Of a DNA stretch of 64,000 nucleotides, positions 93-54,579 are shown piece after piece. The position numbers were made by a program, and so were the translations under genes. A model generated the notes under the pieces. The model made no database searches and was not told the DNA's origin. It was given only the letters and a program-made list of their open reading frames with translations. Every line of letters begins with the position of its first letter. Positions within the stretch are counted from its first letter, which is position 1. The stretch is from Cryobacterium roopkundense (GTDB lineage Bacteria > Actinomycetota > Actinomycetes > Actinomycetales > Microbacteriaceae): contig NZ_JACHBQ010000002.1 of NCBI RefSeq assembly GCF_014200405.1, positions 15,224 to 79,223 on the forward strand, read 5' to 3'.

Positions 93-403
93 TTCTCTCT
101 CTCCTCGGACAACTTGTTTTTTTGCCTTCCGGCGAGAGAAATCGATAGCGACCGTGAGCGGCGAAGTGCAGGGTCGTGGAATACCGGAGGGAGCGAAGCG
201 AGTGAGGATATGCCGCGAAAGCCCGGAACGAAGCCGCGGAGGGAGCTACGATGACCAGCCGGAATGGTCAAAAAAGCACCAATAGAACAGCGCCGCAAAG
301 CGGCTCCGCCCTGGCAGGTCAGCAGGGCGGCCGCGCCGCCGTTCCATGACGGGGGAACGAAGCGGCGGCTGCGCCGCTGCTTCCGCTTGTCCGCCCCGCA
401 GGG
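93..403 (-). promoter_or_regulatory. Leader module copy 1 (long imperfect hairpin)
   Basis: About 311 bp nearly identical to 2519-2830. The arm at 117-133 (T7 then GCCTTCCGGC) can pair with 258-275 (GCCGGAATGGTC then A6). Inside it ATCGATAGC faces GCTACGAT with one bulged base. A second large inverted repeat follows, with CCGCCCTG facing CAGGGCGG. It lies directly upstream of the leftward gene at 88. A conserved TACGAT could be a -10 element. Candidate single-strand promoter; inference. Confidence 0.55.
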
Positions 404-458
404 ACGGCTTCAACGGGCCGCCGTGGTGGTCCCTCAGCGGCCGATGCGACGGGTCGTT

Positions 459-1340
459 CTAGAGAGTTATGTCCTCACCGGTCGTGAGGAGTACCCACAG
501 CGCCCGTCCAGCATGGCCCACTGCCCCGGGCACTGCCGGGGTCGGAAGCCGGTCCGCGTCGACGAGTTGACGCAGGTCGAAACCGGTGAGGGCGGCGATG
601 TCGGCAATGGGGACCTGGAATGTGCGAAACGGGCCCAGAGGAGGCGTGTCGCCGGCTTCGAGTGCACGGGCGGTTTGCAGGTCGAGGTCGTCGAGCTGCG
701 CGGTCTGGTCCAGAACGTAGCCGGTCGCTGCGAGAACGAGTCCCTCGACAGAGTCGTCCGCGTTCAGGTCAACGTTGGCCGGGACGTGAACCCAGACGGC
801 GATTTTCCAGAACAGTCGGGGGATCGCAATGTCCCGGTAAATCGGGTCGGTCGGATCGAAGACCGGGCCGGTGAAGACGTTGAGCTGTGCCCGGTGCACA
901 CGTGCGTGGTCAAGGACGTAGTTCTCCAACCCTGCCCACAGCTCGGGGCCCTGGTTGAATTTCTTCGCCTGGGGTGCCGCATTCGTGAACATGAAGGTCT
1001 CACTGTTGGCTCGCGCGGCGATCTCGGGGGCACCCCAGACGGGATCTCTGCGTCGGACGAGGTGGCCACGGTCGAGGTCGTTTTGCTCGTAGAGGCGAGG
1101 CCCGGCCTGTTCGCTTTCGGGCACTCGGGGATCGAAACGCCAGTCGTTGGTCCGGTCCAAATCCACGAGCGCCGCGCCATCGATATTCACCCCGGTTGCC
1201 GCGGCGAGCCGTCGGAACGGGTCCAGCAGCACAGTGAAGTGCGTGTAGTCGAGCTGTCGCACGACGTGTCCCTCCTGGGGAAGAGGCAGTGGAACATCGA
1301 TTGTGAGAAAGCTGGGGGCATATCCGAGTTCAATGGCCAT
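459..1340 (-). CDS. DNA/RNA non-specific endonuclease (NUC family)
   Basis: 293 residues. The NUC-family signature DRGH is at residues 90-93, with His93 the expected general base. It is followed by TNAAPQ near 119-124 and FNQG..W..LEN (about 128-140), where Asn is expected to hold the catalytic Mg2+. Known relatives cut DNA and RNA without sequence preference. No signal peptide is seen, unlike secreted relatives, so it may act inside the cell. The start at 1340 has only a weak RBS. It lies downstream of the dprA-like gene but beyond that gene's terminator-like hairpins, so it probably has its own promoter. The family is clear; the role on this plasmid is unknown. Confidence 0.85.
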   Translation of the reverse strand: MAIELGYAPSFLTIDVPLPLPQEGHVVRQLDYTHFTVLLDPFRRLAAATGVNIDGAALVDLDRTNDWRFDPRVPESEQAGPRLYEQNDLDRGHLVRRRDPVWGAPEIAARANSETFMFTNAAPQAKKFNQGPELWAGLENYVLDHARVHRAQLNVFTGPVFDPTDPIYRDIAIPRLFWKIAVWVHVPANVDLNADDSVEGLVLAATGYVLDQTAQLDDLDLQTARALEAGDTPPLGPFRTFQVPIADIAALTGFDLRQLVDADRLPTPAVPGAVGHAGRALWVLLTTGEDITL

Positions 1341-1477
1341 GCCTCAGCAAAGCACGTGCGGGGGGAGATGACCGCCACAGTCCTCACGCACCGTGTCGAC
1401 ACATCGGATATTCGGGGTACTGCCGATCCGGTGTCATGAGCTGGTTTTCCCGGCCCGACAGAACGCTAACGCCGGAT

Positions 1478-1504
1478 ATTCGACTAATTCACACGCCACC
1501 CATG
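1478..1504. repeat. Short sequence shared with 6878-6905
   Basis: ATTCGACTAATTCACACGCC and the following CACCCATG recur with few changes at 6878-6905. Here it is in the gap between the nuclease and the dprA-like terminator; there it is beside the rep relic. Function unknown. Confidence 0.4.
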
Positions 1505-1525
1505 CCGGTTGCCCTGGTGGGGAGC

Positions 1526-1568
1526 GCGAGGGGATACCCCTCGCCGGCCAGCCCGAAGGCTGGCCGGC
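1526..1568 (-). terminator. Tandem hairpin after the dprA-like gene
   Basis: Two adjacent perfect stems: GCGAGGGG/CCCCTCGC (1526-1544) and GCCGGCCAGCC/GGCTGGCCGGC (1543-1568) with a CGAA loop, UUCG in the leftward transcript. They lie 10 bp beyond the dprA-like stop. There is no long T run. Confidence 0.6.
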
Positions 1569-1577
1569 CCCACGCGC

Positions 1578-2513
1578 CTAGAGTTCGGCGGCGTCGGCGG
1601 TGTCGGTGATGATGCGTGCTCCATATTCTTTGATCAGGCGGTGGCATCCGGCGCTGGTGGGGGAGGTAACCGGTCCGGGGACGGCGCCGAGCGGGCGGCC
1701 GAGTGCTTTCGCGTGACCGGCGACGTTCAGTGACCCGGAACGCCAGCCCGCTTCGACGACGAGGGTCGCGTTGCTTCCGGCGGCGATCAGGCGGTTCCGC
1801 ATCAGGAACCGCCATTTGGTCGGCGCGGATCCACAGGGCATTTCGGAGGCGACGACCCCATCGGTGACGATGCGGGTGAGGAGGGCGTCGTGTCCGGTGG
1901 GGTAGAACCGGTCGACACCTCCGGCGAGAAACGCGACGGTCTGCCCGTCGCTGGCGAGGGCGGCGCGGTGCGCCATGCCGTCGATCCCGTACGCGGCCCC
2001 GGACACGATGGTGTGCCCTCGCCCCACGAGCCCGCCGACGATGTCCATGCACACGTGCTCCCCGTACCCGGTGGCGGCTCGCGCGCCGACGACGGCGATG
2101 CTTTTAGGGGCGACCAGTAGGGCGGTGTTGCCCCGGGCCCAGAGGGCGTGCGGGGCGCTCGATCCAAGGTCAGCGAATCCGGTCGGCCAGTGCGGGTGCT
2201 CCGACGTGATCAGCACCGCATCAACTTTTTCGGCGGCATGAACTGCCGTTACGATGCCGCTGTCAGCGACGCGGGGGAGTACGCGCCCCCTCAAGTTCGT
2301 CAGGTCCAGTCCTGCGGCGTTACCGTCGCCCTGGCACAGGAGCGTGAGCGCGTCGGCGGCTCCGACTGCGTTGATGAGTGCTCCGGCTTGGGTGTCGCCG
2401 GGTTCTCCGATGGTGGTCCAGACGGCGCGGGCGATCGCGTCGGGACTGAGGTTCTGGCTGGCCAGTGCGGCGGTCGCGGTGGTGAGGTGGCGGGTGATGG
2501 TGAGTGCGTTCAT
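1578..2513 (-). CDS. dprA: DprA/Smf-like DNA-processing protein
   Basis: 311 residues. The Rossmann-type DprA core is plain: VGARAATGYG, then SGAAYGIDGMAHRAAL, LAGGVDRFYP, and SEMPCG..P.KWRFLMRNRLIAAGS near residues 230-250. DprA proteins bind single-stranded DNA and load RecA during transformation. Plasmid or phage versions have been linked to handling incoming single strands, so a role after conjugative entry is plausible but inferred. The start at 2513 has a strong GAGGAGAGAGAG RBS just left of leader-module copy 2. Shorter than many chromosomal DprA proteins, with no clear C-terminal winged-helix domain. Confidence 0.88.
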   Translation of the reverse strand: MNALTITRHLTTATAALASQNLSPDAIARAVWTTIGEPGDTQAGALINAVGAADALTLLCQGDGNAAGLDLTNLRGRVLPRVADSGIVTAVHAAEKVDAVLITSEHPHWPTGFADLGSSAPHALWARGNTALLVAPKSIAVVGARAATGYGEHVCMDIVGGLVGRGHTIVSGAAYGIDGMAHRAALASDGQTVAFLAGGVDRFYPTGHDALLTRIVTDGVVASEMPCGSAPTKWRFLMRNRLIAAGSNATLVVEAGWRSGSLNVAGHAKALGRPLGAVPGPVTSPTSAGCHRLIKEYGARIITDTADAAEL

Positions 2514-2518
2514 GGTGT

Positions 2519-2830
2519 TTCTCTCTCTCCTCGGACAACTTGTTTTTTTGCCTTCCGGCGAGAGAAATCGATAGCGACCGTGAGCGGCGTAGTGCAGGGT
2601 CGTGGAATACCGGAGGGAGCGAAGCGAGTGAGGATATGCCGCGAAAGCCCGGAACGAAGCCGCGGAGGGAGCTACGATGACCGGCCGGAATGGTCAAAAA
2701 AGGCACCAATAGAACAGCGCCGCGAAGCGGCTCCGCCCTGGCAGGTCAGCAGGGCGGCCGCGCCGCCGTTCCATGACGGGGGAACGAAGCGGCGGCTGCG
2801 CCGCTGCTTCCGCTTGTCCGCCCCGCAGGG
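2519..2830 (-). promoter_or_regulatory. Leader module copy 2 (long imperfect hairpin)
   Basis: About 312 bp, differing from copy 1 at only a handful of positions. The arm at 2543-2559 pairs with 2684-2701 as in copy 1. It lies immediately upstream of the dprA-like gene. Confidence 0.55.
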
Positions 2831-2895
2831 GCTTCCCGTCAGGGATGGGGTCGTGATCTGAGGTTCCGGCCTCCGTGCCGGTGCCGGGGAAGGGC

Positions 2896-2927
2896 CCGGC
2901 GTGACAGTTGGGGCACTGTCACGCCGG
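2896..2927 (-). terminator. Hairpin after the parB-like gene
   Basis: Perfect 13-bp stem CCGGCGTGACAGT/ACTGTCACGCCGG with a 6-nt loop, 8 bp beyond the parB-like stop. No T run follows on either strand. Confidence 0.55.
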
Positions 2928-2935
2928 ACTGATCG

Positions 2936-4378
2936 TTACTCTAGGGGCTGGTCCTCACTCTCCGCATCCTCCACACCCTCGACGTTGTCTCCGGGTGCGT
3001 CGTCGGGTGTTTCGGTGGCGGTGGTTTCGGGTGTCACGACGACGAGCTGCTCCACGTCGCTGAGGCCGTAGCCCCACGCGGCCAACTGCTGGAAGTACAG
3101 TTCTTTGCTGGCGTCGGGGTAGCGCCACGTGCTCTTACTCGTGCTGTCTTCGATGCCGCCGAGGATCACGGCGAGGGTAACGTGCTGCGCCTTGGTGGGG
3201 GAGTGCTCCACCAGCGCAGCGAGCTTGTCCACATCCCAGAACCCGCCCCGCTCAATGCCCAGCAGCACGTGCGCGAGGACACTGCCGTTGGTGACGGCGC
3301 TACCGACAGCGGAGCGGTGCACGGTCAGGCCCTGCGCGATGACCTTGCCGGTGTCTTTCGGGAGCGTCTTCCGGCTGAGGAACTCGGCCAACCATTCCCG
3401 GCGCACGACCTCGGCGGAGGCCCATGCTTTGTTGTTGGCGATCAGGGTCTTCCGTTCGGTTTTCTGCTCCTCAGTCATCGGGCCGCTGGCCGCGCCACTG
3501 CTGGTTTCCTTGCGGAACCCGGCTGCCTTGAAATCGGTCAGGAAGTAACTCACGCTCGCTTCCTCACCAGCCCGGTACGCCCGAACATACGCGGCACGGC
3601 CCACGGTGTCTGTGATGTCCTCGAGCGTGACGCGTGCACCGTCCACTGTGACCAGTTCGCTAAGACGAACGGGCGCGCCTGCTTCGTAGTAGCTCGGTTC
3701 CCGGTCAAAGACGATGAACCCGCGCCCGATCAGGTCGGCGGTCGCTTCGGCCTTGATCAGGGCGACCGCGCGGTCATCGCGGGCGCGCTGCGTCGCGTGG
3801 GCGAACTGCTCGGGCCTGCTCGTGGCCACGTCGATCAGGTCACTGACCGTCTCGTCGTCACCCTCGAACTCAATCAACGCCGCCGCCTGATCCAACGTCA
3901 ACGAGTGACTGACGATCGCGGACGCCGCCGTGCTGCTCGCGGCGACGGCGATCCCGGCCTTCACCGTTGCGGGCTTGCTGCCGGTGCGCTTGGCGATCAC
4001 TGCCGGAGTCAGCCCTTCGAAGGCGAGTTGTTGGAACGCGGCGACCCGGTCCGCGTCGGTGACCGCTTCACGGTGGTCGTTTTCGACCATCTGCACCACG
4101 ATGCGGTCCACGGTGGCTTCGTCGGCGTCGACGATGTACGCCGGAATCGTCGCCAGTCCGGCCTCCCGCGCGGCGAGAGTGCGGCGCTGCCCGGCCCGCA
4201 CAATCACGGTGCCCTGCTCATCACGCCGGGCGAGGATCGGCGTCAGGACACCGTTCTGCTTGATGCTGGCGACGAATTCACGCGGCAAGTTCGCTGCGGT
4301 GCGCACGTTGGCCTCGACCACGATCAGGTTCGGGTCGAGGTGTTCTATGGTGCCCATCCGGGCGGTGCTGTTAGTCAT
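2936..4378 (-). CDS. ParB/Srx-domain DNA-binding protein
   Basis: 480 residues from the ATG at 4378, which has a GGAGAGAG RBS. An upstream in-frame ATG at 4516 lies inside the leader module and was not used. The N-terminal ParB/sulfiredoxin fold is visible: VVEANVRTAANLP, then AGQRRTLAAREAG (residues about 60-72), QMVENDHREAV and a helix-turn-helix (LTPAVIAKRTGSKPATVKAG). The C-terminal half is unassigned and ends in an acidic tail. No parA partner is adjacent, so it may not be the partition protein. F-plasmid leading regions encode a ParB-like protein of comparable type (YubM), and the leader module here supports a similar early-entry role, which is inferred. Confidence 0.85.
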   Translation of the reverse strand: MTNSTARMGTIEHLDPNLIVVEANVRTAANLPREFVASIKQNGVLTPILARRDEQGTVIVRAGQRRTLAAREAGLATIPAYIVDADEATVDRIVVQMVENDHREAVTDADRVAAFQQLAFEGLTPAVIAKRTGSKPATVKAGIAVAASSTAASAIVSHSLTLDQAAALIEFEGDDETVSDLIDVATSRPEQFAHATQRARDDRAVALIKAEATADLIGRGFIVFDREPSYYEAGAPVRLSELVTVDGARVTLEDITDTVGRAAYVRAYRAGEEASVSYFLTDFKAAGFRKETSSGAASGPMTEEQKTERKTLIANNKAWASAEVVRREWLAEFLSRKTLPKDTGKVIAQGLTVHRSAVGSAVTNGSVLAHVLLGIERGGFWDVDKLAALVEHSPTKAQHVTLAVILGGIEDSTSKSTWRYPDASKELYFQQLAAWGYGLSDVEQLVVVTPETTATETPDDAPGDNVEGVEDAESEDQPLE

Positions 4379-4384
4379 TGGTTC

Positions 4385-4580
4385 TCTCTCCATCAACTGA
4401 TTTTTTTGCCTGTCTGGCAAGAGAATCGATTGAGAGCGGGAGTGCCGTAGTGCACGGCTGGTCGGGGGAAATAAGGGAGCGTGCGACCGCGCCCGACCAG
4501 GTGGGCACGTAGGCACGGGAGCGAACTACGATGACCGGCCAGACAGATAAAAAATTCAAAAAACAGGTCGCGGAGCGACT
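4385..4580 (-). promoter_or_regulatory. Leader module copy 3 (long imperfect hairpin)
   Basis: The arm at 4401-4418 (T7 then GCCTGTCTGGC) pairs with 4538-4554 (GCCAGACAGAT then A6). An inner stem pairs CTGGTCGGG with CCCGACCAG. The arm sequence differs from copies 1 and 2, but pairing is kept by matching changes on both sides. CTACGATGACC is conserved. It is upstream of the parB-like gene. Confidence 0.55.
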
Positions 4581-4632
4581 CCGCGTCTTGGCTTACGTTT
4601 TGACTTGTTTATTGTGTCGATACGATCAAACA

Positions 4633-5022
4633 ATGTCATCAACTGCCTCTCAGCAAGCCCAAATTCCGGATCTGACCCCATCGGGAAAATTCGTGCGCAA
4701 ATGGGCGGCCATAGCCTCCTGGATTCTCGCTGCTGTCCTTCTCGTCGCCATCGCATTGCTTGCCCCCGACAAGATGGATGGAGCGATCGGAACTGCGCTT
4801 GCGATTTTCGCTTTCGGCATCTTTGCAGCGACAATTCAAACCTCAACGAGTTTCTGGATCGGCGTCTTCGCAATTCTTGGTGGTCTGGTCGCGGCGTTCA
4901 TCGTCAGTCTTAACGCCGAGGGCACGCTCCCGCTCGTGGTGACGATAGTGAACGCTGTAATTACAGTCGTTTCTGTCTGCTGGACAACATTCGGATCGAA
5001 CCAACAAACTCACCTGAGCTAG
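4633..5022 (+). CDS. Small multi-pass membrane protein
   Basis: 129 residues from the ATG at 4633; the upstream reading frame only runs through the leader module. About four hydrophobic helices are seen: WAAIASWILAAVLLVAIALL, then AIGTALAIFAFGIFAAT, FWIGVFAILGGLVAAFIV and LVVTIVNAVITVVSV. No catalytic motif. It runs opposite to the neighbouring leftward genes. Family not recognised. Confidence 0.6.
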   Translation: MSSTASQQAQIPDLTPSGKFVRKWAAIASWILAAVLLVAIALLAPDKMDGAIGTALAIFAFGIFAATIQTSTSFWIGVFAILGGLVAAFIVSLNAEGTLPLVVTIVNAVITVVSVCWTTFGSNQQTHLS

Positions 5023-5134
5023 GGCAAATTATGCGGCGCTCGACAACGAAGCGAGCTGCATACCGATCATGGCCCAATAACGAGTTTGTTTGTGATCGAG
5101 GATGCCTCTTTCGATCGAGTACCGCGCAGCGGTC

Positions 5135-5500
5135 CTAGGGCCGGAATGGCCTACCCGAAGGTGCCGCCGCGAGGAGCTCCTCGAGGCGGGTGTCAGCGTC
5201 GGTGCCGCCCTGGAGGAGTAGGGGCATAAATCGGGTGAGGGCGGCGAAGCCGGCGGCCTGGGTCGGATACACGCCGAGGGAGACCAGGTGAGTGCTGCCG
5301 TTCGAGGTGGTCAGCTCCGCACACGGATAGTGCTCTTCCGGCGCGATTCCTTCTCGAACCGCGTCGGTGAAGGTATTGCTGTCGAGCTGTTCTTCGATGG
5401 ACACGACCTGGTCGAGGTTGATCCAGATGTCGTCGGCGCCGATCGTCGGCCGTGAGCGGTCGTGCCCGTAGGTGGTGACGGCAAGTTTCAGGTAGCGCAT
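5135..5500 (-). CDS. Hypothetical protein, 121 residues
   Basis: Starts MRYLKLAVTTYGHDRSRP at 5500 with a plausible AGGACC purine stretch upstream. No signal peptide or membrane helix. The composition is soluble and mixed alpha/beta, with an acidic middle and a Gly/Pro-rich end. It is in the same leftward direction as the leader-module genes but does not carry the module itself. Family not recognised. Confidence 0.55.
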   Translation of the reverse strand: MRYLKLAVTTYGHDRSRPTIGADDIWINLDQVVSIEEQLDSNTFTDAVREGIAPEEHYPCAELTTSNGSTHLVSLGVYPTQAAGFAALTRFMPLLLQGGTDADTRLEELLAAAPSGRPFRP

Positions 5501-5603
5501 GATGGGTCCTTCCCGAGTTGGTAGGCCTTGACGCTATGGCGAACGTGGGCGTGGCCGGCGGCGATCGGGGTGTTCTGTGGATAACGCCGCGCTACCGGGG
5601 AGT

Positions 5604-5657
5604 GTGAGGGGGAAGTTCCCCCTCACGGCTGAGGCCGCCCGGCGGGCGGCCTCAGCC
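5604..5657 (-). terminator. Tandem terminator-like hairpins
   Basis: GTGAGGGGGAA/TTCCCCCTCAC (5604-5626, 1-nt loop) is followed directly by GGCTGAGGCCGCCC/GGGCGGCCTCAGCC (5627-5657, 3-nt loop). They lie 6 bp past the stop of the leftward 216-residue gene. Confidence 0.65.
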
Positions 5658-5662
5658 TGCGC

Positions 5663-6313
5663 TCAGTGTGTGGTCGGGCCGAGGGCTGCGAGGGCGATTT
5701 CCAGTGCGCGGTCGTAGCTGATTCCTGCGGGTCGAACCTTGTTCAGCACGAAGCGTTGGGCTTTGGGCCGTCGGAGCGTTCCGGCGTAGCCCTCGGGGGC
5801 GTCCTGCTGCGGCCCGTAGCCGGGGTGCAGGATCAGCCACCTCGGGAAGGGCACATCGTCTCTGAGCACGGCGGAACGGTATCGGGCGGACGGTTTGTGG
5901 CAGCGGTGCCAAAATAGTTCCGCTTCGGCTCGTGCAGCGAGTCGTTCGGCGACGGGCCGTGGCGTCACGCCTGCGGGGTGCATGCGCTTCGTGGTCGTCG
6001 CGTGGACGTAGGGGCGGAGCTGGGAACCATCGCGGGCGGGGATCTCGTTCGCGACGGCCCGTTCAGCCCGTGCAGCGGCCCGCCTCGCGGCGGTGTCGTG
6101 CACGTGGGTTAGTGACCATTGGCTGGCCTCAATGGCGCAGCAGATCAGGTTCCAGTCGTGGCTGTAGAACTGGATGACTCGGTCGAGGTCACGCTGGGCC
6201 GTGGTGCCGTTTGTCCGCATGTATCGGGCAAAGAACGCGTTAGCGGCTTTGCGATCGGCGGCTATGTCATCGCTGGTGCGTTCGGGACGGGTGACAACGA
6301 GGAACTGGGGCAT
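5663..6313 (-). CDS. Hypothetical protein behind leader module copy 4
   Basis: 216 residues, starting MPQFLVVTRPERTSDD at 6313. It is rich in Arg, Ala and His, with helical stretches (DRKAANAFFARYMRTNG and AARRAAARAERAVANEI). No signal peptide, membrane helix or recognised catalytic motif. The basic composition would suit nucleic-acid binding, but that is only suggestive. Its position directly behind a leader module puts it in the same putative early-expressed set as the DprA-like and ParB-like genes. Confidence 0.6.
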   Translation of the reverse strand: MPQFLVVTRPERTSDDIAADRKAANAFFARYMRTNGTTAQRDLDRVIQFYSHDWNLICCAIEASQWSLTHVHDTAARRAAARAERAVANEIPARDGSQLRPYVHATTTKRMHPAGVTPRPVAERLAARAEAELFWHRCHKPSARYRSAVLRDDVPFPRWLILHPGYGPQQDAPEGYAGTLRRPKAQRFVLNKVRPAGISYDRALEIALAALGPTTH

Positions 6314-6322
6314 GAGACTCTC

Positions 6323-6500
6323 CGCTCAACTGATTTTTTTGCCTGTCGGCAAGAGAATCGATTGAGAGCGGGAGTGCCGAAGTGCACGGCTGGCCGGGCG
6401 AAGTAAGGGAGCGTGCGACCGCGCCCGACCAGGTGGGCACGTAGGCACGGGAGCGAACTACGATGACCGGCCAGACAGATAGAAAATGGAAAAGGGCCGC
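6323..6500 (-). promoter_or_regulatory. Leader module copy 4 (long imperfect hairpin)
   Basis: The arm at 6334-6350 (T7 then GCCTGTCGGC) faces 6470-6486 (GCCAGACAGAT then AGAAAA). The interior is closely similar to copy 3, including CTACGATGACC. Pairing is slightly poorer than in copy 3. Confidence 0.5.
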
Positions 6501-13057: not shown

Positions 13058-13381
13058 TCAGCCGAGGACGTATTCGAGTGCCTGGCCGAAGTCGTGAGTG
13101 ATGCGATCGCGACGCGCAGCGAGCTTGGTCGTAGAAGGCCTGCGTATGACGTCGTCAGGCGCATCGTCCTCGATGTAGCCCAGCGCTCGAAGATCGACCA
13201 GTGCGCCATGAATAGCGGGACGGCTCATGACATCACCCAATGCTGCAAAAAGCTCGGCGTAGTTGAGGGGCCGGGGGAGCAGCGCGCGGAGAACCAGGAC
13301 ACGAGCGGGAGCAGCAAACAACTCCTGAAACACTTTGACCCGCGCCGGGGCGTCCTTCATCAAAATCTCAGACCGTGCCAT
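13058..13381 (-). CDS. Second ArsR-like winged-helix regulator
   Basis: 107 residues from MARSEILMKDAP at 13381; the open frame extends to 13453 without a better start. The core PARVLVLRALLPRPLNYAELFAALGDVMSRPAIHGALVDLRALGYIEDD is a winged helix of the same broad type as the gene at 12441. No cysteine pair. It lies between that gene and the divergent conjugation operon, so it is a candidate repressor of transfer genes. That is inferred from position only. Confidence 0.68.
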   Translation of the reverse strand: MARSEILMKDAPARVKVFQELFAAPARVLVLRALLPRPLNYAELFAALGDVMSRPAIHGALVDLRALGYIEDDAPDDVIRRPSTTKLAARRDRITHDFGQALEYVLG

Positions 13382-13701: not shown

Positions 13702-14898
13702 ATGAGTAACACCAGTCACGCGAACGCAAGCGGCGTTTTCGGTGCCGCTGATCGCGCCGGAGATTACATCGAAGACGACACCACCCCCTTCGCCCCGACA
13801 CTTCCTCGCCGGCGTGCAGAAACCACGCTCGTCGCCGATACGGAACGTGTTACACCGGAGACCACGCCCACTCCTGCATCACCTATCTTCCCGGAGGCTG
13901 TCGACCGGTCGAGCACGTCCGTACTTTTCAGCAGTCCGGCCGCGGGCCTCGCGGCAGCGTCCCGCATGAGTAACCCCGCGAAAGCGAGCGTCGGTTTCCG
14001 CGGTGTTCTGGCCAGCCTGGGACTACCGGTGGCCCCAGGGCCAGCGGAAGTCGTTGAACGGCAGCGCGTTGATTTGCGTACCGCTGACGAGACCACAGTC
14101 CGGCAGGCGACGTGGACACGCGCGGTGTCGATCCTGATCAACAATCCCAAGGGTGGCACAGGCAAAACCCCTACCGCCCTACTACTCGGAGGAGTGCTCG
14201 CCGCGATCCGCGGCGGATCCGTCGCGATCCTCGAAGTGTCCGACGACCCCGGCGCACTAAACTTCCGCGCCGAAGGCAACCCGCAGCTCGGACTGGGGGA
14301 GCTGGTACGCGACGTCACCCAGATTCGCACGGCCGGCCACCTCGCCGGCTACACCGCCCCCCAAACGTCGTTCGCATCGGTGATCGGCTCCACCGGTCGC
14401 CGCGAACGACTGACGGGAGATTCCGTGATCGCTGTCACCAGTGTTATCGACGAGTTCTACGGAATCCGCGTCATGGACTCAGGCAATGTCACAACGTCCT
14501 CAGCTTTCCAAGGCGCAGTGTCCGTGTCCGACGTGCTCGTGATCCCCGTCATGAACGCCGGCGACTCCGTCCTCGAGGCGATCCAACTGCTCGACGAGCT
14601 GCGCTCCGCAGGTGGCGACTCAGCGAAGCTGGCAGACACAGCAATCGCCATCCGATTGACGGACGGTCGGCCGGAGAACGACGCGGTACGCCAGGAAGTC
14701 GAGCGACTACTGAAGGACGCCGGCGTGAGCGCCCTGCACGAAATCCCTTATGACGCCCACATCGCCGAGCGTGGCCAAATCACCCTCGGCAACCTGAACC
14801 CAGCGACCCGGGACGCCTTCACCTCCGCCGCCGCAAGCGTGGTCCGTTCTCTGCAATCCGCCGTATCGGCCGCACCCTCACAAAACCGGAAGGCCTAA
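13702..14898 (+). CDS. ParA/MinD-like ATPase, first gene of the transfer operon
   Basis: 398 residues from the ATG at 13702 (RBS GAGAGG). A disordered N-terminal 130 residues precedes a deviant Walker A, NNPKGGTGKTPTALLL (about residues 149-164), then VAILEVSDDPGA and a Walker B-like GIRVMDSGN. ParA/MinD-type ATPases position DNA or protein complexes at the membrane. Being first in the T4SS operon, it may place the transfer machine rather than partition the plasmid, although it is also the only ParA-like protein seen. The following gene starts 2 bp after its stop. Confidence 0.8.
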   Translation: MSNTSHANASGVFGAADRAGDYIEDDTTPFAPTLPRRRAETTLVADTERVTPETTPTPASPIFPEAVDRSSTSVLFSSPAAGLAAASRMSNPAKASVGFRGVLASLGLPVAPGPAEVVERQRVDLRTADETTVRQATWTRAVSILINNPKGGTGKTPTALLLGGVLAAIRGGSVAILEVSDDPGALNFRAEGNPQLGLGELVRDVTQIRTAGHLAGYTAPQTSFASVIGSTGRRERLTGDSVIAVTSVIDEFYGIRVMDSGNVTTSSAFQGAVSVSDVLVIPVMNAGDSVLEAIQLLDELRSAGGDSAKLADTAIAIRLTDGRPENDAVRQEVERLLKDAGVSALHEIPYDAHIAERGQITLGNLNPATRDAFTSAAASVVRSLQSAVSAAPSQNRKA

Positions 14899-14900
14899 CC

Positions 14901-15233
14901 ATGCACGAGCTCATCCTCCTCGCCGCGATAGACAACCCACTGGACGGGATCCTCCCCGACTTCTCCTTCGGCGGAGCCGAGTTTACGGCCCTGTGGCAGA
15001 AACTCATCGCGGCCCTCTGGGCCATCGGAATCCTCGTTGCCATCGGGTACCTGATCTTCGGAATTGTGGCGATGTCAGGAGCCTCCGGTGAGACCAACCC
15101 CAACCCTCAAGCGCATTCACAAGGGCGCCGCAAAGCAGTGTGGGCAGGCATCGCACTCGCCTCTCTAGCTGGCCTGGCCATCATCGTCGGCGCAGTCCTC
15201 ACCTTCGCTTCCCCCGCCGTCGCCTCGATCTAA
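14901..15233 (+). CDS. Pilin-like two-helix membrane protein (VirB2-like)
   Basis: 110 residues with two hydrophobic segments: LIAALWAIGILVAIGYLIFGIVAM (about 35-58) and AGIALASLAGLAIIVGAVLTFA (about 82-104). A small basic, Gly/Ser-rich loop lies between them. Size, topology and place in the operon fit the small membrane subunit found in Gram-positive T4SS operons. The direct family was not verified. No classic signal-peptidase site is evident. Confidence 0.6.
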   Translation: MHELILLAAIDNPLDGILPDFSFGGAEFTALWQKLIAALWAIGILVAIGYLIFGIVAMSGASGETNPNPQAHSQGRRKAVWAGIALASLAGLAIIVGAVLTFASPAVASI

Positions 15234-23478: not shown

Positions 23479-23983
23479 CGACGCTCTTGCCGACGTTCCA
23501 ACTGACGAGGTCGAGCGCGAGAACTGGGACGCCGAAACGACTGAAAAGGATCCCAACGCCGACACCACCATTCCCGCTCAGGAACCGGGCGACGACGCAG
23601 AAGAGAGCAGCGACCAGGAAGACCCGGACGTTCGGGAGTTGTTTCTCGATTGGCTCACGCCGCACCTGCGCACGGTGGAAGTTGTCGGAACGAAACCCAC
23701 ACCGTGGTGCGCGCAGTGGTGGCTGCACCCTGAAGTCGTCGCGCGTTTCAAATCTCTCTGGCAAGCCAGCATGCAAGCCGATGCCAGCGTGCAAGACGGC
23801 GACGCCGGTGCAGTGTCGTCCTGGTGGATCAACCATTGGGACCGTCACGCTGCTGTGATCTTTGATAAGAGCACCGGACCATTCCGCGACTGCGACCCCG
23901 ATGAAGGGCACCTTCATCGCCGCAAAGACAAAACCTCAACGATCGTTTCGGCGATGAGGCCACCCGACAATGTGGAGCTTTAA
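23471..23983 (+). CDS. DUF4913-domain protein
   Basis: 170 residues from a GTG start at 23471. An acidic N-terminal 55 residues is followed by the DUF4913 pattern: WCAQWWLHPEVVARFKSLW, SSWWINHWDRHAAVIFD and GPFRDCDPDEGH. The domain is common next to coupling proteins on actinobacterial mobile elements. Function unknown; an accessory or regulatory subunit of the coupling protein is plausible. Last gene of the transfer operon. Confidence 0.8.
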   Translation: MADDALADVPTDEVERENWDAETTEKDPNADTTIPAQEPGDDAEESSDQEDPDVRELFLDWLTPHLRTVEVVGTKPTPWCAQWWLHPEVVARFKSLWQASMQADASVQDGDAGAVSSWWINHWDRHAAVIFDKSTGPFRDCDPDEGHLHRRKDKTSTIVSAMRPPDNVEL

Positions 23984-53139: not shown

Positions 53140-54579
53140 GGTCACGTCCCTCTGAGTGGTGTAATTCCCAGGGTTCGATCGTTGGAATAACAACGTAACG
53201 AACCACCGTGCGATGGTCAGTGAGAACCGTTCAAAGTTCCTCACAGAAAGACACATCACACGATGGCTCTAGACCAGTCTGCCCTGCTCGCGCTCCTCTC
53301 TGAACTCAAGCTCACCAATGTCACCGATCGAATCCGAATGGTGACCGAAACGCTCTACCAAGAACTCATCAACGCGGAGGCCACCGCCCACATCGGCGCG
53401 GCCCCGTTTGAGCGTTCTGACGATCGCACCAACCAACGCAATGGGACCCGCTCGCGCGTCTTGACGACCACGGCCGGGGACCTGAATCTGAAGATCCCCA
53501 AGCTGCGTCAGGGCTCATTCTTCCCGGCACTTCTGGAGCGGCGCCGGCGCGTGGACCAAGCCCTGTTCGCCGTGGTTATGGAGGCTTACCTCCACGGCGT
53601 CTCGACCCGCAAAGTCGACGACCTGGTCAAAGCACTCGGCGCGGACACCGGCATCTCCAAGTCCGAAGTATCCCGGATTTGCGCCGATCTTGACGGGGAA
53701 GTCGCCACGTTCCGTGGCCGTGACCTCGGCGTAACCGGCTACCCCTACGTGTTCCTCGACGCCACGTATTGCAAGGCCCGCGTCAACCACCGCGTCATCT
53801 CCCAGGCGATGGTCGTCGCCATCGGCGTGGCCGCTGACGGCCGCCGCGAGGTCCTTGGTTTCGACGTCGGTGACAGTGAGAATGAGATCTTCTGGACGGA
53901 GTTCTTGCGGTCTTTGAAGGCCCGAGGGCTGGACGGCGTGAAGCTCGTCATCTCCGACGCTCACTCGGGGTTGAAGAAGGCGATCAGCACCGTTTTTCAG
54001 GGTGCCGCCTGGCAACGCTGCAGGGTCCACTTCATGAGAAATGTTCTCTCGATCGTGCCGCGGGCGAGCCAGGACATGGTCGCTGCCGTCATCCGCACCA
54101 TCTTCGCCCAGCCCGACGCGAAGCACGTTCAGGCCCAGTTCGACGAGGTCACCCGGATGCTCGAGCGCTCTCACCCGAAGGTCGCCACGATGCTCCACGA
54201 CGCGCGCGCCGACATCCTCGCATTCTGCGGATTCCCGCCCAAACACTGGCGACAGGTGTGGTCCACAAACCCACTCGAGCGCTTAAATAAGGAAATCAAG
54301 CGCAGGACCGATGTCGTCGGTGTGTTCCCCAACCCAGCCGCCCTGCTCCGCCTCGCAGGCGCCGTCCTCGTCGAGCAACACGACGAGTGGGAAGCCGGCT
54401 CCCGGCGCTACCTCTCCGAGGACTCCATGCGCCAGCTGACCGCCTTCAACGCCGCCCTCACCCTCCCCGACGCGAACGCCCTGACGGGGGTGATTCCCGT
54501 TCCCGAGCTCATTGCCGCATAATCAAATCAGCTGACCCGCACGGTGACGATGAATTACACCACCCGGCGGGACGTGACC
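53140..54579 (+). mobile_element. IS256-type insertion sequence, 1440 bp
   Basis: The ends carry an inverted GGTCACGTCCC (53140-53150 and its complement 54569-54579), with further imperfect pairing through GTGGTGTAATTC. It is bounded by 8-bp direct repeats GAATTCAC. One transposase gene. Intact ends and duplications suggest recent insertion. Confidence 0.9.
53263..54522 (+). CDS. IS256-family (Mutator) transposase
   Basis: 419 residues. TETLYQELINAEATAHIGAAPFERSDDRTNQRNGTRSR, then LDATYCKARVNHRVISQAMVVAIGVAADGRREVLGF (first Asp), VKLVISDAHSGLKKAI (second Asp) and WSTNPLERLNKEIKRRTDVVGVFPN (Glu). These are the Mutator/IS256 DDE residues. Full length and apparently intact. Confidence 0.95.
   Translation: MALDQSALLALLSELKLTNVTDRIRMVTETLYQELINAEATAHIGAAPFERSDDRTNQRNGTRSRVLTTTAGDLNLKIPKLRQGSFFPALLERRRRVDQALFAVVMEAYLHGVSTRKVDDLVKALGADTGISKSEVSRICADLDGEVATFRGRDLGVTGYPYVFLDATYCKARVNHRVISQAMVVAIGVAADGRREVLGFDVGDSENEIFWTEFLRSLKARGLDGVKLVISDAHSGLKKAISTVFQGAAWQRCRVHFMRNVLSIVPRASQDMVAAVIRTIFAQPDAKHVQAQFDEVTRMLERSHPKVATMLHDARADILAFCGFPPKHWRQVWSTNPLERLNKEIKRRTDVVGVFPNPAALLRLAGAVLVEQHDEWEAGSRRYLSEDSMRQLTAFNAALTLPDANALTGVIPVPELIAA

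Follow-up and report, generated by a model that had tools for sequence, protein, structure and literature searches.

To our knowledge, the single-stranded promoters known to date come from enterobacterial F and IncI plasmids, and the logic of the Frpo promoter reportedly goes back to a paper of 1997. In the parts of the literature available here, Frpo1 and Frpo2 of F and ssi1–3 of ColIb-P9 are described as hairpins of the transferred strand that lie upstream of leading-region genes and carry –10- and –35-like letters in their stem, so that these genes are transcribed from the incoming strand (PMC9849209, PMC11541004, PMC7736820). The accessible text of Samuel et al. 2024 describes BLAST searches with five known Frpo/ssi sequences and a –35/–10 consensus in a few islands. 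That of a 2026 Nucleic Acids Research study (PMC12826799) adds to those five 13 putative Frpo sequences from a large-scale analysis published earlier, which is taken to be that of Samuel et al. 2024. Here we describe hairpin modules in a stretch of 64,000 nucleotides from Cryobacterium roopkundense (the window, i.e., positions 15224–79223 of C2, a contig of 79,223 bp and the second in a genome of 4.53 Mb). Judged from sequence, and with a probability that we put at roughly two in three, each of these modules is a single-strand-specific start site, i.e., a promoter or primer that would work like Frpo without carrying Frpo sequence.

C2 is taken for a conjugative plasmid because it encodes a TrwC/MOBF relaxase and a TraG/D coupling protein, together with ParA, ParB, DprA, DUF3846 and type I-E Cas proteins. 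Since the relaxase is coded on the minus strand, the plus strand is, under the usual oriT layout, the predicted transferred strand. The four modules that the original prediction had placed upstream of four leftward genes are all present (copies 1 to 4; Table 1), and three more lie to the left of the window, where they precede, in turn, a gene for an NrdH-like glutaredoxin (a label judged by eye from the translation), a gene of 163 amino acids and one of 313 amino acids. The case had therefore been understated, as C2 carries seven modules rather than four, each just upstream of a different leftward gene, and their hairpins end in two conserved tips (types A and B). What carries the reading as single-strand start sites is the anatomy of the modules, their covariation, their strand bias, a directional –10-like motif and the genes with which they are associated.

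Folded as single-stranded DNA, copies 1 and 2 each form one long imperfect hairpin running from a T-run to an A-run, in which the TACGAT of the right arm lies opposite ATCGAT and a single A is bulged. The same holds for copy 3, except that an internal loop replaces the bulge at TACGAT, whereas copy 4 prefers a local fold and reaches the long hairpin only suboptimally. The pairing of the far ends (T-run/GCC with GGx/A-run), which had been proposed for all four copies, is thus found in copies 1, 2 and 3, and the bulged TACGAT opposite ATCGAT, likewise proposed for all four, in copies 1 and 2. Comparison with shuffled sequence gave fold z-scores of –3.45, –2.54, –4.76 and –3.07 for copies 1 to 4 when cut at the module ends, and of –0.11, –0.07, –3.50 and –3.82 with generous ends. 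Since these scores shift with the chosen ends, folding energy alone is not decisive for copies 1 and 2, and it was dropped as a stand-alone argument, the generous ends having given no excess for these two. Arm-to-arm pairs numbered 44, 42, 40 and 9 in copies 1 to 4, against shuffle means of 5.8–8.0, and the observed arm pairing was matched by 0, 0, 0 and 72 of 200 shuffles, respectively. The matched two-sided changes claimed between copies 1/2 and copies 3/4 hold (TTCCGGC/GCCGGAA versus CTGTCTGGC/GCCAGACAG), with other versions in related plasmids, and the outer arms co-change across 12 full-length type A modules, four of which come from C2.

The hairpin tip comes in two exchangeable versions on one base, a feature that is new here, and the base with TACGAT is common to both. 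Type A is carried by copies 1 and 2 and by the modules at C2:11047 and C2:14404, and type B by copies 3 and 4 and the module at C2:13148. The type A core spans about 72 nt and reads C-GTGGAATACCG-[stem-loop]-GAGGATATGCCGCG-AAAG, while the conserved part of type B in relatives reads CGAAATAAGGGAGCG...GCGACCGCG, with one or two changes on C2. A type B query returned 90 plasmid records at E-values up to 10, mostly actinobacterial by name and some of them 18-base matches near chance, and no contig in IMG/VR matched either of the two type B patterns searched. On the Clavibacter plasmid pCM2 (L162), a type B tip lies directly upstream of an ArdC-like gene, with an SSB gene further on.

A two-half pattern of type A was present in 23 IMG/VR contigs and in at least 119 stretches of GTDB genomes, and blastn with module 2 yielded 230 plasmid records at E-values up to 1e-5. 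Plasmids of Actinomycetota, Bacillota and Pseudomonadota carry type A, and so do filamentous-phage contigs. After removal of near-duplicates and cut ends, 129 of the 165 listed copies were kept, of which 125 were aligned and 125 folded, and a covariance model (R1) was built from 125 type A copies. R1 located one site each in the searched stretches of F (53,996–54,072) and ColIb-P9 (23,709–23,785), neither of them at Frpo1/2, and two sites on a plasmid stretch of B. cenocepacia J2315. A further search, returning 1,935 records, gave many 21-base near-chance matches that were not counted as elements; it only pointed to F, where the site was then confirmed by R1. In the host family, R1 matched 38 of 249 genomes at E-values up to 0.01 (own genome counted). 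In phylum-wide samples, run with stricter filters, there were matches at E-values up to 1e-4 (centre genome excluded) in 5 of 198 genomes of the phylum of a Lachnospiraceae genome (G258), in 2 of 199 of the phylum of a Burkholderia genome (G263), and in none of 197 of the window's phylum. The best R1 match on the host's own chromosome reached only 15.3 bits (E-value of 2.5). Such a patchy spread is what mobile elements would be expected to show. Two contigs assigned to Vibrio cholerae 35D (L105 and L119) hold copies that resemble those of Arthrobacter plasmids, and these contigs may be contamination.

Moreover, blastn of the Frpo1/2 regions of F against C2 gave no match, and neither this search nor R1 thus supports the modules as homologues of Frpo1/2. 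F and ColIb-P9 carry type A in addition to Frpo/ssi, upstream of a DNA methylase gene (on F about 12 kb from what we take to be the position of oriT), and the type A tip, unlike Frpo, is common to several phyla and filamentous-phage contigs. Because of this range, the "actinobacterial" in the predicted actinobacterial equivalent of single-strand promoters is too narrow.

When no structure was given, RNAalifold recovered from the type A alignment a core helix flanked by an outer and an apical stem, and its 19 predicted pairs all fall within the 23 named pairs. Across the 125 copies, 86.7% of the cells of the named structure are paired, and 373 cells are changed on both sides versus 146.7 in shuffles (standard deviation of 9.8), with a covariation score of 0.326 versus 0.129 in shuffles and at most 0.128 when the structure was slid. 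Across related plasmids, pairing is thus kept with changes in both arms, in type A as well as in the outer arms, and a conserved single-strand hairpin, as in Frpo/ssi, is present (in copy 4 as a suboptimal fold only). The core was fixed by the search pattern save for three positions, so that its invariance in the alignment (A2) is partly built in; the AAAG, the stems and the loop lay outside the pattern. Ten sites were found by R1 alone, several of them with broken core pairs. Even so, one pair of the core varies: most copies have C-G, F and L150 have T-A, and four model-found sites (in three genomes of the Bacillota sample) have G-C, with some other core pairs broken at these sites. Finally, in the first two apical pairs, G·T outnumbers A·C by 47 to 3, indicating that the motif strand is the one that folds.

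The genes beside the element also resemble those of the known systems. In 15 of 18 annotated type A records, the closest 5′-side gene is directed away from the hairpin, as it is in Frpo/ssi, and these 15 genes comprise seven DNA methyltransferases (on F, ColIb-P9, pGUE-NDM, a Serratia, a Stenotrophomonas and two Burkholderia records), three ParB, one ArdC-like, one DUF932 and three unknown genes. A plasmid of 2.6 kb lacks a 5′-side gene in its linear record. Annotated open reading frames (ORFs) that overlap type A in F, ColIb-P9 and pGUE-NDM may be spurious and were disregarded; among them are hypothetical ORFs at 53784–54089 on F and 23491–23802 on ColIb-P9. Type A lies directly upstream of the DNA methylase genes of F and ColIb-P9 and of a methyltransferase gene on the J2315 plasmid. 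According to the available text of Fomenkov et al. 2020 (PMC7736820), the recipient has to produce M.EcoGIX of pESBL, inversion of oriT leads to restriction of a magnitude like that of a methylase knock-out, and Frpo (ssi) upstream of the methylase is invoked. From plasmid type and position, we infer that the methylase genes of ColIb-P9 and J2315 are orthologues of those in that study. The Frpo-like control of leading-region genes that had been envisaged is consistent with these data, as related modules precede genes known from leading regions.

The transferred strand was deduced from the direction of the relaxase gene, considering only relaxases over the cut-off. Type A lies opposite the relaxase coding strand, and hence on the predicted transferred strand, on all 12 contigs with a MOBF relaxase (C2 included), and copies away from the relaxase do so on 11 of 12 contigs with a MOBP relaxase. 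For such copies, the location on the transferred strand known from Frpo/ssi is therefore found on 23 of 24 contigs, and J2315 and ColIb-P9, which were examined later, agree with it. Two sub-cut-off relaxase matches were left out of the 24, one of them for the rule (W03) and one against it (W02), and pooled with a relaxase-adjacent class that was defined after the data had been seen, the rule holds for 23 of 34 contigs. That the plus strand of C2 would enter as the template of the leftward genes, as in the original prediction, fits the minus-strand MOBF relaxase and the usual oriT layout. A zot match was present in 8 of 24 phage records, and type A lies on the strand of the nearest zot on all seven phage contigs with zot nearby. 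Among these seven, G291 contains another zot at a greater distance, on the opposite strand, and a contig of 80.5 kb outside the seven (G296) has zot on the opposite strand, 74 kb away.

These strands also bear on whether the motif could be a structured RNA element transcribed from the motif strand. Both the tolerance of G·T and the covariation would suit RNA as well as single-stranded DNA, and the motif stands in mRNA sense in the zot-bearing phage contigs. However, it is antisense to the 5′-side genes in the 15 annotated plasmid records mentioned above, lies on the non-coding strand in a microvirus, and tracks the strand predicted to be transferred, not the sense of the genes. Moreover, Rfam gave no match at gathering score in the window or in its left neighbor (L007), and none at E-values up to 1 in w1–7000. 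We regard an RNA element as very improbable.

With regard to promoter-like letters, TAnnnT (–10-like) was found in the 3′ arm at offsets 26–32 past the core in 66 of the 129 dereplicated copies. In contrast, the mirrored 5′-arm position has it in 4 copies, and two further offset ranges in the 3′ arm have it in 4 copies each. Such counts are inflated by kinship within groups and clades, as the copies are not independent. The motif was present in 30 of 42 copies from Actinomycetota, 14 of 22 from Bacillota and 19 of 30 unassigned ones. The possible –10 already noticed in the right arm thus belongs to a motif enriched in the 3′ arm and not in its mirrored place. A TTGACA-like hexamer (at least 4 of 6) was found in the outer stem of 64 of the 129 copies, including all 22 from Bacillota, 10 of 17 from Pseudomonadota, 13 of 18 viral and 18 of 30 unassigned copies.

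From the above, we infer a role for RNA polymerase, a start site, a switch-off and a function for the tip, as follows. As long as the recipient contains the plasmid in single-stranded form, the module on its transferred (plus) strand would fold into its long hairpin. The 3′ arm would then act as the non-template strand, with –35-like letters towards the tip and the –10-like TACGAT closer to the base, where a bulge or internal loop would open it, and the 5′ arm would act as the template. With the –10-like letters in the 3′ arm, RNA polymerase would start near the hairpin base, exit there and proceed onto the single-stranded DNA 5′ of the hairpin, where the genes lie, yielding both the mRNA of the gene there (DUF3846, DprA, ParB, etc.) and a primer for the second strand. 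In the duplex form, the same letters would face the other side, so that early expression would end. The conserved tip, be it type A or the mainly actinobacterial type B, may serve as a plug-in element for recruitment or stability. In filamentous phages, the same polarity would yield an antisense RNA fit only for priming the second strand, so that priming may be the older role. As a tentative and quite possible extension, the type A tip would give host machinery of different phyla one and the same point of entry on single-stranded DNA, starting RNA both on the incoming strand of conjugative plasmids in Actinomycetota, Bacillota and Pseudomonadota and on the virion strand of filamentous phages, with a host factor conserved among these phyla reading the specific DNA fold; a primer site would thus have turned into a gene switch thrown on entry, with type B as an exchangeable alternative.

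A number of observations weigh against the modules being single-strand-specific start sites. With respect to folding, the minimum-energy fold of copy 4 is a local left-arm hairpin, and in the eight outer-stem pairs G·T and A·C number 67 and 52, which is a weak difference. With respect to the letters, to which the kinship mentioned above also applies, TAnnnT at offsets 26–32 is scarce in Pseudomonadota (1 of 17) and in viral copies (2 of 18), the TTGACA-like hexamer occurs in just 1 of 42 copies from Actinomycetota, the window copies have a poor –35 (roughly 2 of 6 letters, judged by eye), and –10- and –35-like letters occur together in 29 of the 129 copies; different groups keep different halves of the promoter letters. 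The window modules lie approximately 29–45 kb beyond the probable oriT, which would place them outside the first-entering kilobases. On pWW0 and pCCK381, the left genes face the other way, and mechanical ORF calling on all 165 copies revealed no leftward bias (left, 79 plus and 64 minus; right, 78 minus and 64 plus). Since ORF calling in GC-rich DNA is unreliable, the latter result was set aside, and annotated records and the strands of relaxase and zot were used in its place, but it still counts against a promoter. With respect to the strand, G261:C109 is the sole MOBP exception among copies away from the relaxase, and on all ten contigs of the relaxase-adjacent class the strand that codes for the relaxase, an actinobacterial MOBP type, also bears a copy, 0.8–1.3 kb upstream of the relaxase domain. 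Finally, the zot-less microvirus PQ006669 (L017) carries type A at 4023–4099 on the minus strand, i.e., the non-virion strand, opposite its genes and downstream of rep.

Several of these points would suit a module that starts only the second strand, i.e., a priming site at which DnaG, PriA or RNA polymerase would produce a short primer while the genes use other promoters. Hairpins that start the second strand are known from the complementary-strand origin of M13, and the sso types of rolling-circle elements are defined by RS-B and CS-6 elements. In the accessible part of its description, the sso of ICEBs1 is likewise a hairpin that starts the second strand in an orientation-specific manner (PMC4595007). 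By description, the modules resemble such origins; unlike them, type A also precedes genes that it would express. A role in priming only would account for the zot (virion) strand in filamentous-phage contigs, where antisense RNA could just prime, for the fixed-offset –10-like letters missing in most proteobacterial and viral copies, and for the mechanical ORFs without leftward bias. It would leave unexplained that each of the seven modules on C2 lies directly before a different gene, that the 5′-side gene so often points away in annotated records, and that the –10 is directional in Actinomycetota and Bacillota. Priming alone is therefore, in our view, rather unlikely.

In the relaxase-adjacent type A copies of W04, W07, G250, G260, G265 and G267, the promoter-like letters of the 3′ arm point at mobC. 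In this class, such letters are shifted outward, and several of its ten flanks show TTGCCA-N16-TAnnnT.

A further alternative is an ordinary double-stranded promoter or protein-binding repeat, i.e., an establishment-gene regulon. On IncN plasmids (R46/pKM101), CUP elements are repeated upstream regions before several leading-region genes, and the modules on C2 likewise repeat upstream of several genes. Bases 1–50000 of R46 (50969 in total) matched neither R1 nor, in blastn, modules 2 and 3. The accessible text on the EGeRS of pLS20/p576 describes conserved sequences upstream of establishment genes in a Gram-positive plasmid family and states that there is no evidence that single strands are needed (PMC8708921). 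The modules are similar in being conserved upstream sequences of several genes, and bases 1–50000 of pLS20 (65774 in total) gave no R1 match. A duplex promoter would be in keeping with these repeated upstream regions, with the outward reading of the 3′ arm in the duplex, and with the aim of the relaxase-adjacent copies at mobC. In contrast, the stem letters drift while the pairing is kept, the –10 is on the side away from the genes and reads in the wrong direction, and the strand follows the direction of transfer, all of which make an ordinary duplex promoter hardly credible.

As for the surroundings of the modules on C2, a DNA/RNA non-specific endonuclease gene (PF01223; w459–1340, minus strand) lies inside the module region and has no module of its own. 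To the left of the window (L007:21-7446), Pfam identified Cas6e, Cas5, Cas7, Cse1 and Cas3 of a type I-E system, and in transfer order these Cas genes sit between the probable oriT and the modules.

Table 1. Modules, type A cores and associated genes on C2 (w, position in the window; C2, position on the contig).
Feature	Position	Strand	Remarks
Module copy 1, type A tip	w117-275	plus	TACGAT 247-252, ATCGAT 141-146
Type A core of copy 1	w162-233	plus	Model R1, 67.5 bits
DUF3846 gene start, under copy 1	w1-88	minus	Gene runs past left window edge
Module copy 2, type A tip	w2543-2701	plus	TACGAT 2673-2678, ATCGAT 2567-2572
Type A core of copy 2	w2588-2659	plus	Model R1, 68.3 bits
DprA-like gene, under copy 2	w1578-2513	minus	PF02481
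Module copy 3, type B tip	w4401-4554	plus	TACGAT 4527-4532
ParB-like gene, under copy 3	w2936-4378	minus	PF02195
Module copy 4, type B tip	w6334-6486	plus	TACGAT 6459-6464; long hairpin suboptimal
Gene of 216 amino acids without Pfam match, under copy 4	w5663-6313	minus	
Three extra modules left of the window	C2:11047-11197, 13148-13300, 14404-14565		
TraG/D coupling protein gene	w21601-23478	plus	
TrwC/MOBF relaxase	w36765-40742	minus	PF08751

With respect to earlier descriptions, literature text searches for the core letters returned nothing relevant, and among the titles of papers containing the word Frpo none names such an element; the 13 putative Frpo sequences were not compared, and one of them may be type A. 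Because the laboratory plasmid F carries a type A copy, the proposal that the modules are single-strand-specific start sites is testable at once. If true, a fold-defined element present in several phyla would make the early expression of plasmids predictable without a homologue of Frpo, and would connect conjugation with the way in which filamentous phages start their second strand.

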